Below are positions 8,462-20,334 of a stretch of 64,000 bases of DNA, one piece after another (the stretch's first letter is position 1; each line of letters starts with the position of its first letter). The stretch is from Gemmatimonadota bacterium. GTDB taxonomy: Bacteria > Gemmatimonadota > Gemmatimonadetes > Longimicrobiales > Gaopeijiaceae. The stretch lies in the NCBI GenBank assembly GCA_021295815.1, contig JAGWBQ010000002.1, forward strand, positions 127,292-191,291, in the 5' to 3' direction. The notes below the pieces were generated by a model, which did not search any database, was not told where the DNA came from, and was given only the letters and a program-made list of their open reading frames with translations. Made by a program: the position numbers and the translations under genes.

Positions 8462-8932
8462 CTATCCGGCCTCCACCACGTCGAGAGCGGTCGTGATCGC
8501 TATGGATTTCTTCAACGAACGGTAGACCGGGCACTTGTCGGCGTGAAAACCGTGGACTCGGTCTATGGTCTCCGCGTGCTCCGGCTCCGCCTCCAGCTTG
8601 TATTTGACGTGAATCCTGCGGAGGACGAGCACGCCGTCCTCTTCCTTCTCGACCTCGCCGTGCACTTCGGCGGTGAGCCGTCCGTCGCTCGCATCTATCC
8701 CGCGCGCCTCCAGCGCGCCTCCGAAGGTTCCCACCAGTCACCCGCCGGTGGACGCCGCCACGTAGTCGAGAGTGGTGGTGATCTCGCGCTCGGGATCCGC
8801 GCCGTAGTGCTCCTTCACCGCTCCGTGGACGCCGAACTCCACAGGGCCGGAGTGCGCAGGGAGCCAGGCGTGGCGGTGCGGTCCCTTGAGCCGCTCGATC
8901 CGGCTGATGGAAAGGTAGACGAGATCGGACAT
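8462..8932 (-). CDS. OsmC-family peroxidase-like protein, predicted selenoprotein (Sec65)
   Basis: Two minus-strand open stretches on either side of an in-frame TGA (8738-8740) join into a single 156-residue OsmC-family protein. Before the TGA: MSDLVYLSIS... ending in TTTLDYVAASTGG. After it: LVGTFGGALEARGI, a family beta/helix core, and ADKCPVYRSLKKSI at the C-terminus. The TGA falls where OsmC/Ohr proteins carry the first reactive Cys (GGC-type motif at the start of the central helix), and the partner Cys is C134 in KCPVYR. A bSECIS-like hairpin follows at 8702-8718. OsmC/Ohr proteins reduce organic hydroperoxides with a Cys pair; here a Sec-Cys pair is inferred. The alternative is a Cys-to-stop pseudogene. 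Selenocysteine machinery is not in this window. Confidence 0.75.
8702..8718 (-). promoter_or_regulatory. bSECIS-like stem-loop downstream of the in-frame UGA
   Basis: In the mRNA a perfect 6-bp stem GCGCGC/GCGCGC closes a UGGAG loop. Nineteen nucleotides separate the UGA (8740-8738) from the stem, so the loop starts 26 nt after it. Bacterial SECIS elements recognised by SelB have a small apical loop with an early G at about 16-37 nt from the UGA, which this matches. The palindromic stem in G+C-rich DNA could also arise by chance. Confidence 0.6.
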
Positions 8933-9032: not shown

Positions 9033-12000
9033 ATGGTTCCTTACGCCGAGCTCCACTGTCACTCGGGATTCTCTTTCCTTGACGGCGCGTCCCATCCCGA
9101 AGAACTCGCGACGCGCGCGGCGGAGCTCGGATACGGGGCTCTGGCCCTGACCGATCACGACGGGCTCTACGGCTCCATGGAATTCGCCCAAGCGGCGAAA
9201 AACGCTGGCGTTCAACCCGTCACGGGAGTCGAACTCACGTTGCGCGACACCCTTCCTGGAGACGGACTGCACCATGTGACGCTCATAGCGGAGAACCGGC
9301 GGGGATACGCCAACCTCTGCCGCCTGGTGACCGAGGCCCACATGGAGTCGCCGCGCGATCGGGTGGCGCTCCCCCTTGCATCTCTCCTCGCGCGCCCCGA
9401 GGGGCTCATCCTGCTCACCGGCTGCCGTCGAGGACCGCTCGCCGCCGCTCGCCGCTCTTCGGTGGCCGACGCCGAATCCTTGATGGCTTCCATCATGGAG
9501 AGCTTCGGCGAACGCGGCGTCTTCGTAGAGCTTCAGGAGAACTCCGTGCGCGGAGATCGGACAAGAAATCGCGCTCTGGCATCTTTAGCCGACTCCGCCG
9601 GCGTCGGCGTCGTCGCCACCGGCAACGTCCATTACCACGACTCGTCTCGCAGTCGACTTCAGGACGTTCTCGTGTCCATCCGGGAGCGGTCGACTCTCGA
9701 CGGTTCTCATCGAGCGCGGCGCTCCAATTCGCTCTTCCGGCTTGCGTCGCCCGACGAGATGCGACAGCGCTTCTCGGATCGCGTCGACGCGATCCGCAAC
9801 TCGGCTCGCATTGCGGAGCGGGCTTCGGCGTTCGATCTCACCGAGGATCTGGGATACGAGTTTCCCGACTTCGACGGCGGGCGGGGAACGAGCGCGCTCT
9901 CAACGCTCTCGGCCCTCTGTCGGGCGCGGCTGGAAGAACGTTACCGGCCGGGAAGCCGTGAGTGGGAAGACGCCCGGGAACGGCTCGACACCGAGCTCGC
10001 GCTGGTCGATCTCCACGGACTCGCCGGATTCTTCCTCGTCTACCGCGACATCATGAACCTGGCTGCCGAGGTCGCGCACGAGGTTCGCGGCAGCGCGCTC
10101 AGGGCGAGCGCCAATCTTCCTGCGGGGCGCGGGCGCGGCTCTTCGGTCTCTTCGATCATCTGCTATCTCGTCGGTCTCTCGCACATCGACCCGGTCAGGA
10201 ACAGGCTCTTCCTGGGGAGGTTCCTGAACGAAGCTCTGGGCAGCGTCCCCGACATCGATCTCGATTTTCCGCGCGACATCCGCGAGCAGCTCATTCTCCG
10301 CATCTACGAGAAATACGGAGACGAACACGCCGGCCTGGTATGCACCTTTCCCACCTATCGCCTGCGCTCGGCGGTCAAGGAGATCGGGAAGACCCTCGAG
10401 CTCCCGACGGGAGATCTGGAGAAGCTCTCGAAGCTCGCCGGACAGCGCTCCGCCCGGGGGCTTGCCGAAGAAATGAGGACGCTACCGGAGTTCGGCGAAC
10501 GCGCGGACTCCCGACCTTGGCGCATGCTGGGCGAGCTCGCCGAAGAAATCGCGGGCCTGCCGCGGCACATATCCCAGCACGTGGGAGGGATGATCGTTTC
10601 CAGCAGACCACTCGTCGAGCTCGTGCCGCTTCAGCCGGCAGCATGGGAGGGAAGGGTGCTATGTCAATGGGACAAGGACTCCTGCGACGACGCCGGCTTC
10701 GTCAAGATAGATTTTCTCGCTCTCGGCATGCTCTCCCTGGTCGAGGAAACCACCGACCTGATCGCGGAGCGTCACGGGCAGGCCCCAGACCTCTCGCGCA
10801 TCGACTTCGCCGACGACGCCGTCTACGACCGCCTCTGCGCCGGCGACAACGTAGGCATCTTCCAGGTTGAGAGCAGGGCCCAGATCCAGATGATCCGGAG
10901 GACACGACCTCGGAATCTGAGCGAGCTGGCGGTGCAGGTGGCCATCGTGCGCCCCGGCCCCATCGTCGGAGGGGCGGTCAACCCTTATGTGCGCAGGTGC
11001 GAGCTCCTTCGCGACAATCCCGACTACGAGGTTGAGTACGCACACCCGCTCCTCGCGGAGCCGCTCGGCGAAACTCTGGGCGTCATCGTCTTTCAGGACC
11101 AGGTTCTGGGAGTGTGCCAGGCGCTGGCGGGGTTTTCGGACAGCGAGGGCGAATCCCTGCGCCGGGCTATGAGCCGCAAGCGCTCGCGCGACGCTCTCTC
11201 CGCTCACTGGGAACGCTTCCGGGATGGAGCGGCGGCCAACGGCGTGAGCGAGGAAAAGGCCCGCGTGATCTTCACCCAGGTCGTCGCGTTCTCCGAGTTC
11301 GGCTTCCCGAAGTCGCACGCGGCCGCATTCGGACTGCTCGCCTATCAGTCGGCGTGGCTGCGGCACTACTATCCGGTGGAATTCTACGTCGGCCTCTTCA
11401 ACAATCAGCCGATGGGTTTCTATTCGCTCGACGCCCTGGGCCGCGATTGTCGCCGGAACGGCGTGGCCACGCTTCTGCCCGACCTGAACAGGAGTCAGGT
11501 GCGCTGCACGGCCGAGGGCGGCGATCTGCGCATCGGCCTTGGGTTCGTGCGCGAGTGGGGGGAGGAGGTCGCGGAGGCCGTGGTGGCCGAGCGTGAGCGG
11601 GGCGGCGGCTACGCTTCGTTGCCCGATTTGCTGCGGCGTTCGGAGGTGCGAATCACGACGCGCCGCCTCGCCCGCGCCGCCGTGGAAAGCCTGATATGGG
11701 TGGGTGGGATGGATTGCTTCGGCCTCTCCCGGCGCGAGCTGCTCTGGCAGGCCGGTCTCTGGCTGGGTCCGGACGTCGCCGGCTCCGGGGCGGCCGGATC
11801 CGAGTCCCGAACCACTCGTCCGAGGCGCCGCGAACCCAGCTTCGGTCTGCCTTTCGAAGACCCGTACTCGGATCTCGCCTTTCCGGAACTCGGAGCTGCC
11901 GAACGGATGATGGCGGAGTACGACGCCCTCGACTTCTCGGCGGAGCTCCACCCCTTCGCCCCGCTCCGCGAAGCTCTGCCGAACGACGTTGTCCGTTCCG

Positions 12001-12377
12001 ACGAGCTCCTGGCGGCATCGCCCGGGATCGACGTGACCGTGGCGGGACTCGTAACCACCCGCCAGCGGCCGGCGACAGCGAAAGGATACGTGTTCGTGCT
12101 CATGGAGGACGAATGCGGCCCCGTGAACGTCATCGTCCGCCCGCAGATCTACGAGCGTTGCAAGAGCGTGGTCCGCCTCGAACCTTTCCTCAAGGTGAAC
12201 GGAACGCTGAGAAGAGACGGAGCCACCGTAAACGTCGTCGCGAAACAGGTGGAGAGCCTTCTAGAGGAGAGCAGCGGCGGACACCTCCCAAACTCGGCAC
12301 CGGCCGCCCCAAGCGATCCGTACCGCTACCTCGCCGTTCTGAGGCGTGATCCCCCCGGCATCAAGAGCTGGGGATGA
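9033..12377 (+). CDS. dnaE2: Error-prone DNA polymerase DnaE2 (ImuC)
   Basis: Catalytic subunit of the mutasome that performs translesion synthesis after DNA damage. The 1114-residue protein starts with a PHP domain (ELHCHSGFSFLDGASHPEEL, then LALTDHDGLYG), carries the polymerase aspartates in PDIDLDF (D407, D409, D411) and the third in VKIDFLALGM, followed by the fingers and a C-terminal OB-fold (LVTTRQRPATAKGYVFVLMEDECG). The GRGSSVSSIICYLVGLSHIDP block and total length match DnaE2 rather than replicative DnaE. Its usual partner ImuB is encoded about 18 kb away at 30099-31487. The gene is divergent from the OsmC gene. Confidence 0.93.
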   Translation: MVPYAELHCHSGFSFLDGASHPEELATRAAELGYGALALTDHDGLYGSMEFAQAAKNAGVQPVTGVELTLRDTLPGDGLHHVTLIAENRRGYANLCRLVTEAHMESPRDRVALPLASLLARPEGLILLTGCRRGPLAAARRSSVADAESLMASIMESFGERGVFVELQENSVRGDRTRNRALASLADSAGVGVVATGNVHYHDSSRSRLQDVLVSIRERSTLDGSHRARRSNSLFRLASPDEMRQRFSDRVDAIRNSARIAERASAFDLTEDLGYEFPDFDGGRGTSALSTLSALCRARLEERYRPGSREWEDARERLDTELALVDLHGLAGFFLVYRDIMNLAAEVAHEVRGSALRASANLPAGRGRGSSVSSIICYLVGLSHIDPVRNRLFLGRFLNEALGSVPDIDLDFPRDIREQLILRIYEKYGDEHAGLVCTFPTYRLRSAVKEIGKTLELPTGDLEKLSKLAGQRSARGLAEEMRTLPEFGERADSRPWRMLGELAEEIAGLPRHISQHVGGMIVSSRPLVELVPLQPAAWEGRVLCQWDKDSCDDAGFVKIDFLALGMLSLVEETTDLIAERHGQAPDLSRIDFADDAVYDRLCAGDNVGIFQVESRAQIQMIRRTRPRNLSELAVQVAIVRPGPIVGGAVNPYVRRCELLRDNPDYEVEYAHPLLAEPLGETLGVIVFQDQVLGVCQALAGFSDSEGESLRRAMSRKRSRDALSAHWERFRDGAAANGVSEEKARVIFTQVVAFSEFGFPKSHAAAFGLLAYQSAWLRHYYPVEFYVGLFNNQPMGFYSLDALGRDCRRNGVATLLPDLNRSQVRCTAEGGDLRIGLGFVREWGEEVAEAVVAERERGGGYASLPDLLRRSEVRITTRRLARAAVESLIWVGGMDCFGLSRRELLWQAGLWLGPDVAGSGAAGSESRTTRPRRREPSFGLPFEDPYSDLAFPELGAAERMMAEYDALDFSAELHPFAPLREALPNDVVRSDELLAASPGIDVTVAGLVTTRQRPATAKGYVFVLMEDECGPVNVIVRPQIYERCKSVVRLEPFLKVNGTLRRDGATVNVVAKQVESLLEESSGGHLPNSAPAAPSDPYRYLAVLRRDPPGIKSWG

Positions 12378-12416: not shown

Positions 12417-12487
12417 ACCGCCGGGAACCGACCGGAGGCGTTCCGGCCACGCGGCGCTTGGCCGTTCGCGTGTCCGCGGACCGATAG

Positions 12488-12558
12488 AGGCGCCGCCCGG
12501 ATTCGAACCGGGGATGAAGGATTTGCAGTCCTCTGCCTTACCACTTGGCCACGGCGCC
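12488..12558 (-). tRNA. tRNA-Cys (GCA)
   Basis: A 71-nt cloverleaf read on the minus strand: acceptor GGCGCCG pairing with CGGCGCC, short D arm with AAGTGGTAAGG, anticodon arm GAGGA-CTGCAAA-TCCTT giving anticodon GCA, and T arm with GTTCGAATC. The 3' CCA is not encoded. It is followed upstream by tRNA-Gly in the same orientation, so both probably form one transcript. Confidence 0.95.
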
Positions 12559-12636
12559 GACGGAGGGTCGGCGGTCTGCCCTGCCGGTCATCGGCGAAAA
12601 TCACGATGGGCTCGGACAGTGCGACTCGCTCCAACA

Positions 12637-12709
12637 AGCGGGAAACCGGACTCGAACCGGCGACCCCAACCTTGGCAAGGTTGTGCTCTACCAACTGAGC
12701 TATTCCCGC
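12637..12709 (-). tRNA. tRNA-Gly (GCC)
   Basis: A 73-nt cloverleaf on the minus strand: acceptor GCGGGAA pairing with TTCCCGC, D arm AGCTCAGTTGGTAGAGC, anticodon arm CAACC-TTGCCAA-GGTTG giving anticodon GCC, and T arm GCCGG-TTCGAGT-CCGGT. CCA is not encoded. Seventy-eight bases separate it from tRNA-Cys. Confidence 0.95.
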
Positions 12710-17426: not shown

Positions 17427-18539
17427 GTGCCCGGATCCCATCTCGACAGCCTGGTCCGAAACTTCCGAGCCGGACGCATAGGCGCTCTTGCACGAGCCAT
17501 ATCGATAATCGAGGACGAGCGAAAGGGATACGACACCCTCGCGCGAGAGTTGCTCGGTGGTCCTCCCGCAGCCCGTCGAACCGGCTTCACGGGTCCGCCC
17601 GGAGCCGGCAAGTCCAGCCTCCTGACAGCCGCGACCGAAACCTACCGTTCCGACGATGAGCGGGTCGGGGTGGTGGCCGTCGATCCGACCTCCCCGTACT
17701 CCGGCGGAGCGCTGCTCGGCGACCGAATTCGCATGAACGATCTCGCGACCGACCCCGGTGTCTTCATTCGCTCGATGGCGACTCGAGGTTCCTTGGGAGG
17801 GCTGGCAGGCGCAACCCGCGAAGCTCTCGATCTCATCGACGCCTTCGGCTTCGAGCGGATACTCGTCGAGACCGTGGGCGTGGGGCAGACCGAGCTGGAA
17901 ATTGTGAGCGCGGCCGATACCGTGGTGGTGGTGCTGGTGCCGGAATCCGGAGACTCGGTGCAGGCCATGAAGGCGGGTCTGATGGAGATAGCGGATATCT
18001 TCGTAGTCAACAAGGCCGACCGCCCGGGGGCCGATCGGTTGGCCCGCGATCTCAGGCAGGCCCTCAGACTGCGCGAGGAGGTGGTGACCAGACCGGCCGC
18101 CGGTCATCACGGAGTCGACCTGACGTCGGTGCGGGTCCGCCGAAACGAGGCGACGGAAGGGGGCGACCGATCCGGCTTGGAGCCTGATGCGCCCGCATCC
18201 CGACGCCCCGCCCGCAAATCTCCGAGAAAGGACGAGACGAAGTGGAGGGTCCCGGTGCTTCCGACCGTCGCCCACCGGCGGGAGGGCGTTCCCGAACTGC
18301 TCGCCACGATCACCCGACATCGGGAGTGGCTGGAGAGTTCTGGCGAACTGCGCAGGCGGCGAGAACTGCGCGCGGGAAGCCGGGTGCGCGACATCGCCGA
18401 GCGCGAGCTGATCGGAAGACTTAAGGGTGCCGGATGGGCCGAAGAGCTCATCGAGAGCCAGGTTGGAGAGATCGCGGCCGGTCGCGTGACGCCCTACGAC
18501 GTCGCGCGTGAGATCACCGACCGCCTGCTTCGACTCTGA
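17427..18539 (+). CDS. meaB: Methylmalonyl-CoA mutase-associated GTPase MeaB
   Basis: G-protein chaperone that loads and protects the adenosylcobalamin cofactor of methylmalonyl-CoA mutase. The 370-residue protein has the P-loop GFTGPPGAGKSS, the family block VDPTSPYSGGALLGDRIRM, switch-region ETVGVGQTELEI, the base-recognition NKAD and the C-terminal dimerisation helices. A Lys/Arg-rich insertion around residues 235-270 (ASRRPARKSPRKDETK) lengthens it relative to most MeaB/ArgK proteins (~320-330). It is the first gene of the mutase operon, which supports the assignment. Start is GTG 17427. Confidence 0.95.
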   Translation: MPGSHLDSLVRNFRAGRIGALARAISIIEDERKGYDTLARELLGGPPAARRTGFTGPPGAGKSSLLTAATETYRSDDERVGVVAVDPTSPYSGGALLGDRIRMNDLATDPGVFIRSMATRGSLGGLAGATREALDLIDAFGFERILVETVGVGQTELEIVSAADTVVVVLVPESGDSVQAMKAGLMEIADIFVVNKADRPGADRLARDLRQALRLREEVVTRPAAGHHGVDLTSVRVRRNEATEGGDRSGLEPDAPASRRPARKSPRKDETKWRVPVLPTVAHRREGVPELLATITRHREWLESSGELRRRRELRAGSRVRDIAERELIGRLKGAGWAEELIESQVGEIAAGRVTPYDVAREITDRLLRL

Positions 18540-18618
18540 CGCTCGTTCACCGAATCGAACCGGAGCCCGAGCGACGGGGTAGCACGCACACGGTGACCCA
18601 CTCCTGATTCGCAACCAC

Positions 18619-20330
<1,712 letters not shown>

Positions 20331-20334
<4 letters not shown>

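Follow-up and report, generated by a model that had tools for sequence, protein, structure and literature searches.

A predicted OsmC-family selenoprotein in a Gemmatimonadota genome and its apparently selenocysteine-only lineage

Lists of selenoproteins have included the OsmC type since the Sargasso Sea survey, where an OsmC-like family was found through pairs of selenocysteine (Sec) and cysteine (Cys) forms (PMC1088965), and the type reappears in later catalogues (PMC2398784, PMC9312934, PMC13188914), always with the motif UxxT. The NCBIfam model NF041052 (OsmC_like_Se) would correspond to this listed family. Here, we describe a minus-strand gene with an in-frame TGA from a Gemmatimonadota bacterium (assembly GCA_021295815.1), located in a stretch of 64,000 nt of contig JAGWBQ010000002.1 (positions 127,292–191,291; hereafter, the window). 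This gene very probably encodes a selenoprotein, an OsmC-fold redox enzyme with Sec65 and Cys134, that belongs to an OsmC branch of its own, apparently Sec-only and with two paralogues. The features of the locus are as follows.

8462–8932, minus strand: predicted OsmC-family selenoprotein gene, 156 residues with Sec at 65 (ATG at 8930–8932, TAG at 8462–8464)
8738–8740, minus strand: in-frame TGA (UGA) at residue 65, the site of the first redox Cys of OsmC; kept in relatives and aligned with the Cys of ordinary OsmC proteins
8702–8718, minus strand: putative bacterial Sec insertion sequence (bSECIS) hairpin, 6-bp stem 8718–8713/8707–8702, loop UGGAG at 8712–8708
8531–8533, minus strand: codon of Cys134, candidate resolving cysteine in the motif KCPV; invariant in 31 aligned relatives and aligned with the second OsmC Cys

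Translation through the TGA yields one Pfam OsmC domain (PF02566; 53 bits against a curated cut-off of 27.5). A first-pass annotation, made from the sequence alone, had described continuous OsmC-like coding across 8738–8740, and both these coordinates and its residue numbers for Sec (65) and the second redox Cys (134) are exact. The part after the TGA scores 38.7 bits by itself, and the part before it has no Pfam OsmC match. A sequence search for solved structures gave no match to the window protein, after which structures were compared through an AlphaFold2 model (mean predicted local distance difference test score, pLDDT, 87) that shows an OsmC fold and has OsmC/Ohr proteins as its top matches. 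The window protein is a member of the OsmC superfamily, passing the Pfam cut-off and having the OsmC fold in the model. An hhalign comparison with Cys OsmC proteins (probability 97%, E 1e-11) equates U65 with the first redox Cys and C134 with the second. The UGA had been assigned to the reactive-Cys site at the start of the central helix; the alignment agrees with the Cys equivalence, but residue 65 sits inside this helix (54–75) in the model, not at its start. Residues Y6, R20, H36, D56, A60, U65, G68, T69, G72, L74, R77, G92, C134, and P135 are invariant across 31 diverse aligned rows.

The best structural matches of the model include E. coli OsmC (1NYE, 1QWI) and Thermoplasma OsmC (2ONF), with Z ~11, although these proteins have Cys instead of Sec and share only 13–18% identity with the window protein. 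The genome also encodes its own OsmC (contig C20; OsmC domain 72.5 bits), whose Cys pair aligns with U65 and C134, but this protein has the usual Cys (LALAGCMAIDV) and lies outside the Sec clade. Ohr proteins resemble the window protein in fold, in the order of the two redox residues, and in the similar gap between them, whereas they differ in having Cys for Sec and show low sequence identity. The catalytic residues of X. fastidiosa Ohr are Glu51 and Arg19 (PMC5962072). Taking the catalytic Glu, ten residues before the peroxidatic Cys, as the test position for Ohr, we found Leu55 in the window protein, which does not carry this Glu, and Val or Ile in the others; the next residue, Asp56, is invariant. 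Arg20, a possible counterpart of Ohr Arg19, is invariant in the aligned rows. From its modelled fold and aligned residues, the protein appears OsmC/Ohr-like by anatomy, yet we do not class it as Ohr.

The 18 relatives recovered in a scan of species genomes each have TGA at this codon; they come from metagenome-assembled genomes (MAGs) named Gemmatimonadetes, Bryobacterales, Terriglobia, Deltaproteobacteria, and Acidimicrobiia. Of 298 Gemmatimonadota genomes, 90 have matches at E ≤ 1e-10. Two paralogous subfamilies, S1 (that of the window gene) and S2, share ~35–45% identity and together form one side of a well-supported tree branch (98/93). Among the S1 and S2 matches in the 298 genomes, all that cover the codon have TGA (143/143), and the two without it are fragments that end before this position. 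TGA is likewise present in 24/24 covering matches from Acidobacteriota and 16/16 from a third phylum (that of the ‘Deltaproteobacteria’ MAG); a search around the genome of the ‘Acidimicrobiia’ MAG, whose hits included many genomes already recovered, agreed on the TGA. The lineage appears to span Gemmatimonadota and Acidobacteriota as well as one or more further phyla, and no Cys form was found among the covering matches from the three phyla. Four weak matches without TGA (L156–L159), from this last search, were considered as Cys members of the lineage and rejected, because the fetched sequences are ordinary Cys OsmC/Ohr proteins (e.g., NPEELIAAAHAGCF), the nearest Cys relatives outside the clade, scoring ~35 bits compared to >140 for full-length clade members. 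Replacement of the UGA by Cys in homologues, a point raised in the first-pass annotation, is found in distant OsmC proteins and not within the lineage. Searches of viral contigs, plasmids, and phages returned no relatives; therefore, nothing suggests a mobile element.

The gene could still be a member of the OsmC-like selenoprotein family already catalogued (the UxxT family of the Sargasso Sea-GOS surveys; NF041052), with nothing new in it. Both are predicted selenoproteins of the OsmC superfamily with Sec at the equivalent position, the first redox Cys site. However, all members of the lineage described here have U[LM]xGT instead of UxxT, and no Cys orthologues were found for it. The window protein scores 20.2 bits on NF041052 against a cut-off of 95, which no match in 58 related genomes reaches, and no NCBIfam model covers the window protein at its cut-off. 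The nearest NF041052-like protein (L041) scores 86.5 bits and has CYMT, a CxxT motif; no other row of the tree is more remote, though it sits on a long branch. Identity with the listed family, compared by motif and by the NF041052 model, is unlikely. The first-pass statement that Sec-containing OsmC-like proteins had been listed was right, but the listed UxxT lineage differs from that of the window. The latter is most plausibly a distinct OsmC branch that appears to be Sec-only, set apart by its motif, NF041052 score, and place in the tree.

In bacteria, Sec is inserted when SelB with Sec-tRNA(Sec) recognises a hairpin after the UGA. The first reading of the window had claimed a 6-bp stem with a UGGAG loop 19 nt after the UGA, and this hairpin (GCGCGC-UGGAG-GCGCGC) is present as described, with the stem starting 19 nt and the loop 25 nt after the UGA (z −3.1 for the 19-nt hairpin alone). 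Its 5-nt loop, 6 bp, 25-nt distance, and −12.8 kcal/mol satisfy all published bSECIS constraints (loop 3–9 nt, stem 4–16 bp, G in the first two loop positions, UGA-to-loop distance 16–37 nt, minimum free energy ≤ −7.5 kcal/mol; PMC13188914). Nine TGA sites in the window have coding-like composition on both sides, and a bSECIS-pattern hairpin is found only at gene 8462–8932. Because GC content is high, single-sequence folding of 46–60-nt stretches was uninformative (z −0.2 to −0.9 on 46–56 nt), and a comparative test was used instead.

To determine if amino-acid conservation alone (GALEAR encoded by GGC GCG CTG GAG GCG CGC) could yield the stem, synonymous codons were resampled from each gene’s own usage in 112 genes. 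A complete stem, allowing G-U pairs, is present in 106 of the 112 genes compared to 5.6 expected from synonymous codon usage, and under strict Watson-Crick pairing in 81 compared to 2.0; the same stem geometry occurs at 35 of 16,536 other offsets in those genes. Two inner stem pairs covary (C-G to U-A and G-C to A-U), such that the stem reads GTG...GCA in GVLEAR genes and GCA...GTG in GALEVR genes. Where Ala is replaced by Val (GTG) on one arm, the partner Ala codon is GCA in place of GCG, a silent change, in 36 of 37 genes, whereas GCA makes up 8% of Ala codons elsewhere. When 56 sequences are aligned, the stem pairs in 98.5% of cells, there are 19 double changes, and the covariation score exceeds that of each of 500 shuffles, whereas slid stem registers pair in no more than 72% of cells. 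Every gene has a loop of UGG followed by two bases. These codon patterns indicate selection on the hairpin over and above that on the amino acids, with compensatory codon changes maintaining it.

These results bear on a reading of the locus as two short genes, or as a programmed truncation at the UGA with a functional 64-residue product. UGA often serves as a stop elsewhere in the window, and any selenoprotein gene is expected to give some truncated product. However, neither half is a complete OsmC domain (the N-terminal part having no match), the invariant Cys134 and the C-terminal strands come after the UGA, and the hairpin has bSECIS spacing; we rejected this reading on these grounds and regard it as very improbable.

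The genome assembly of the window (2.47 Mb, 35 contigs, 96% complete) contains the Sec machinery whose presence the first-pass annotation had left to be checked: tRNA-Sec (70.6 bits; ARAGORN anticodon TCA), selA (487 bits), selB (309 bits against a cut-off of 242), and selD (383 bits). The selD gene (L037, on its own contig, C17:14881–15801) has its own in-frame TGA, and the residues after it fit UxxK, the motif given for selenocysteine SelD (PMC13188914), so the selenophosphate synthetase of this genome is likely itself a selenoprotein. Across Gemmatimonadota, selA was found in 221 of 298 genomes, including 88 of the 90 that carry the gene compared to 133 of the 208 that do not (Fisher P 1e-11, only a guide because the genomes are related and not independent).

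Conservation on both flanks requires no more than that the codon be translated, and the UGA might specify a residue other than Sec (Trp, Cys, or via a suppressor tRNA). Long genes in the window, however, end most often in TGA (24 of 48 long coding-like open reading frames), which is therefore a working stop and not a reassigned codon. We rejected code reassignment for this reason; the hairpin at bSECIS distance, the selA co-occurrence, and the TCA anticodon of tRNA-Sec indicate Sec, leaving hardly any room for another residue. Least probable of all, to a degree that we consider negligible, is a pseudogene, an ordinary OsmC gene with a nonsense mutation: a stop codon does interrupt the frame, but this reading is rejected by the same TGA in all relatives, across three phyla, that span the site, by post-TGA differences that lie mostly at third codon positions, and by selection on the hairpin, and the relatives show none of the random stops or frame decay that the first-pass annotation had considered.

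The locus combines what is expected of a bacterial selenoprotein: tRNA-Sec, SelA, SelB, and SelD in the same genome, and homology on both flanks of an in-frame UGA that occupies a redox-residue position. Together, the machinery, the invariant TGA, and the conserved hairpin support the earlier proposal of a probable selenoprotein, and we infer Sec insertion at residue 65 from this machinery, the conserved codon, and the selected hairpin.

Several observations weigh against this reading. The window gene has no clear Shine-Dalgarno site. Two genomes that carry the gene (G002 and G042) have no selA match, both being fragmented assemblies, and among six other hosts one is also without detected selA. 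The position of Ohr Glu51 is Leu and not Glu; therefore, peroxidase activity cannot be assumed. The standard stem is absent from 6 of the 112 genes. Three of these (L116, L117, and L118, one family within S1; GGA GCC CTG GAA GCC AGA/CGA) have lost it and carry an alternative hairpin 14 nt after the UGA that fits the bSECIS model, possibly a repositioned SECIS; in the others (L128, L130, and L160), the UGA is present, the standard complete stem is absent, and there is no clear substitute.

L116:717–761, L117:720–764, and L118:720–764: S1 genes without the standard stem, with GGGC-GGA-GCCC

For the selenoprotein that we favour, a working scheme can be drawn by analogy with Ohr/OsmC enzymes. SelB with Sec-tRNA(Sec) would bind the hairpin 20–36 nt past the UGA, leading to Sec insertion at residue 65. 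In the resulting OsmC-fold redox enzyme, Sec65 would replace the peroxidatic Cys and Cys134 would act as the resolving Cys, the two forming a putative catalytic pair. The Sec65 selenolate may reduce a peroxide or another electrophile and become a selenenic acid, which Cys134 would resolve to a selenenylsulfide; a dithiol reductant, such as a lipoylated or thioredoxin-like protein, would then restore the enzyme. The activity, this peroxidase-like cycle, the reductant, and the substrate are all put forward on the strength of that analogy.

We also lean, with less confidence than for the selenoprotein itself, towards regarding this lineage as an unreported OsmC subfamily that exists in the Sec form only, represented by two paralogues across at least three phyla, and with one bSECIS hairpin kept by compensatory codon changes since before the paralogue split. 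No paper on selenoproteins of Gemmatimonadota was found in the literature library searched.

The selenoprotein gene is divergent to an error-prone DNA polymerase gene (DnaE2-type; 9033–12377, plus strand; NF004225 899 bits, just under the cut-off of 939), and this divergent pair is kept in 7 of 18 related loci, those of close relatives. The neighbourhood in relatives revealed no functional partner, and the adjoining aminotransferase is not near the gene there. Just past the polymerase gene are tRNA-Cys (gca) and tRNA-Gly (gcc) (12487–12709, minus strand). Elsewhere in the window, a MeaB-like GTPase is followed by a methylmalonyl-CoA mutase large subunit (17427–20334, plus strand; assigned from translations only).

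Few selenoproteins lack Cys counterparts, and Sec/Cys pairs are what many searches depend on (PMC13188914); a branch without a close Cys form tends to be overlooked and annotated as a truncated gene or pseudogene. Sec machinery is common in Gemmatimonadota, and the coupled silent and amino-acid changes in the hairpin provide a clean example of RNA constraint within a coding sequence. The lineage is a natural test case for what keeps an enzyme from reverting to Cys. If the subfamily is truly Sec-only, its chemistry would depend on selenium, and it may handle a substrate beyond the Cys OsmC/Ohr enzymes.
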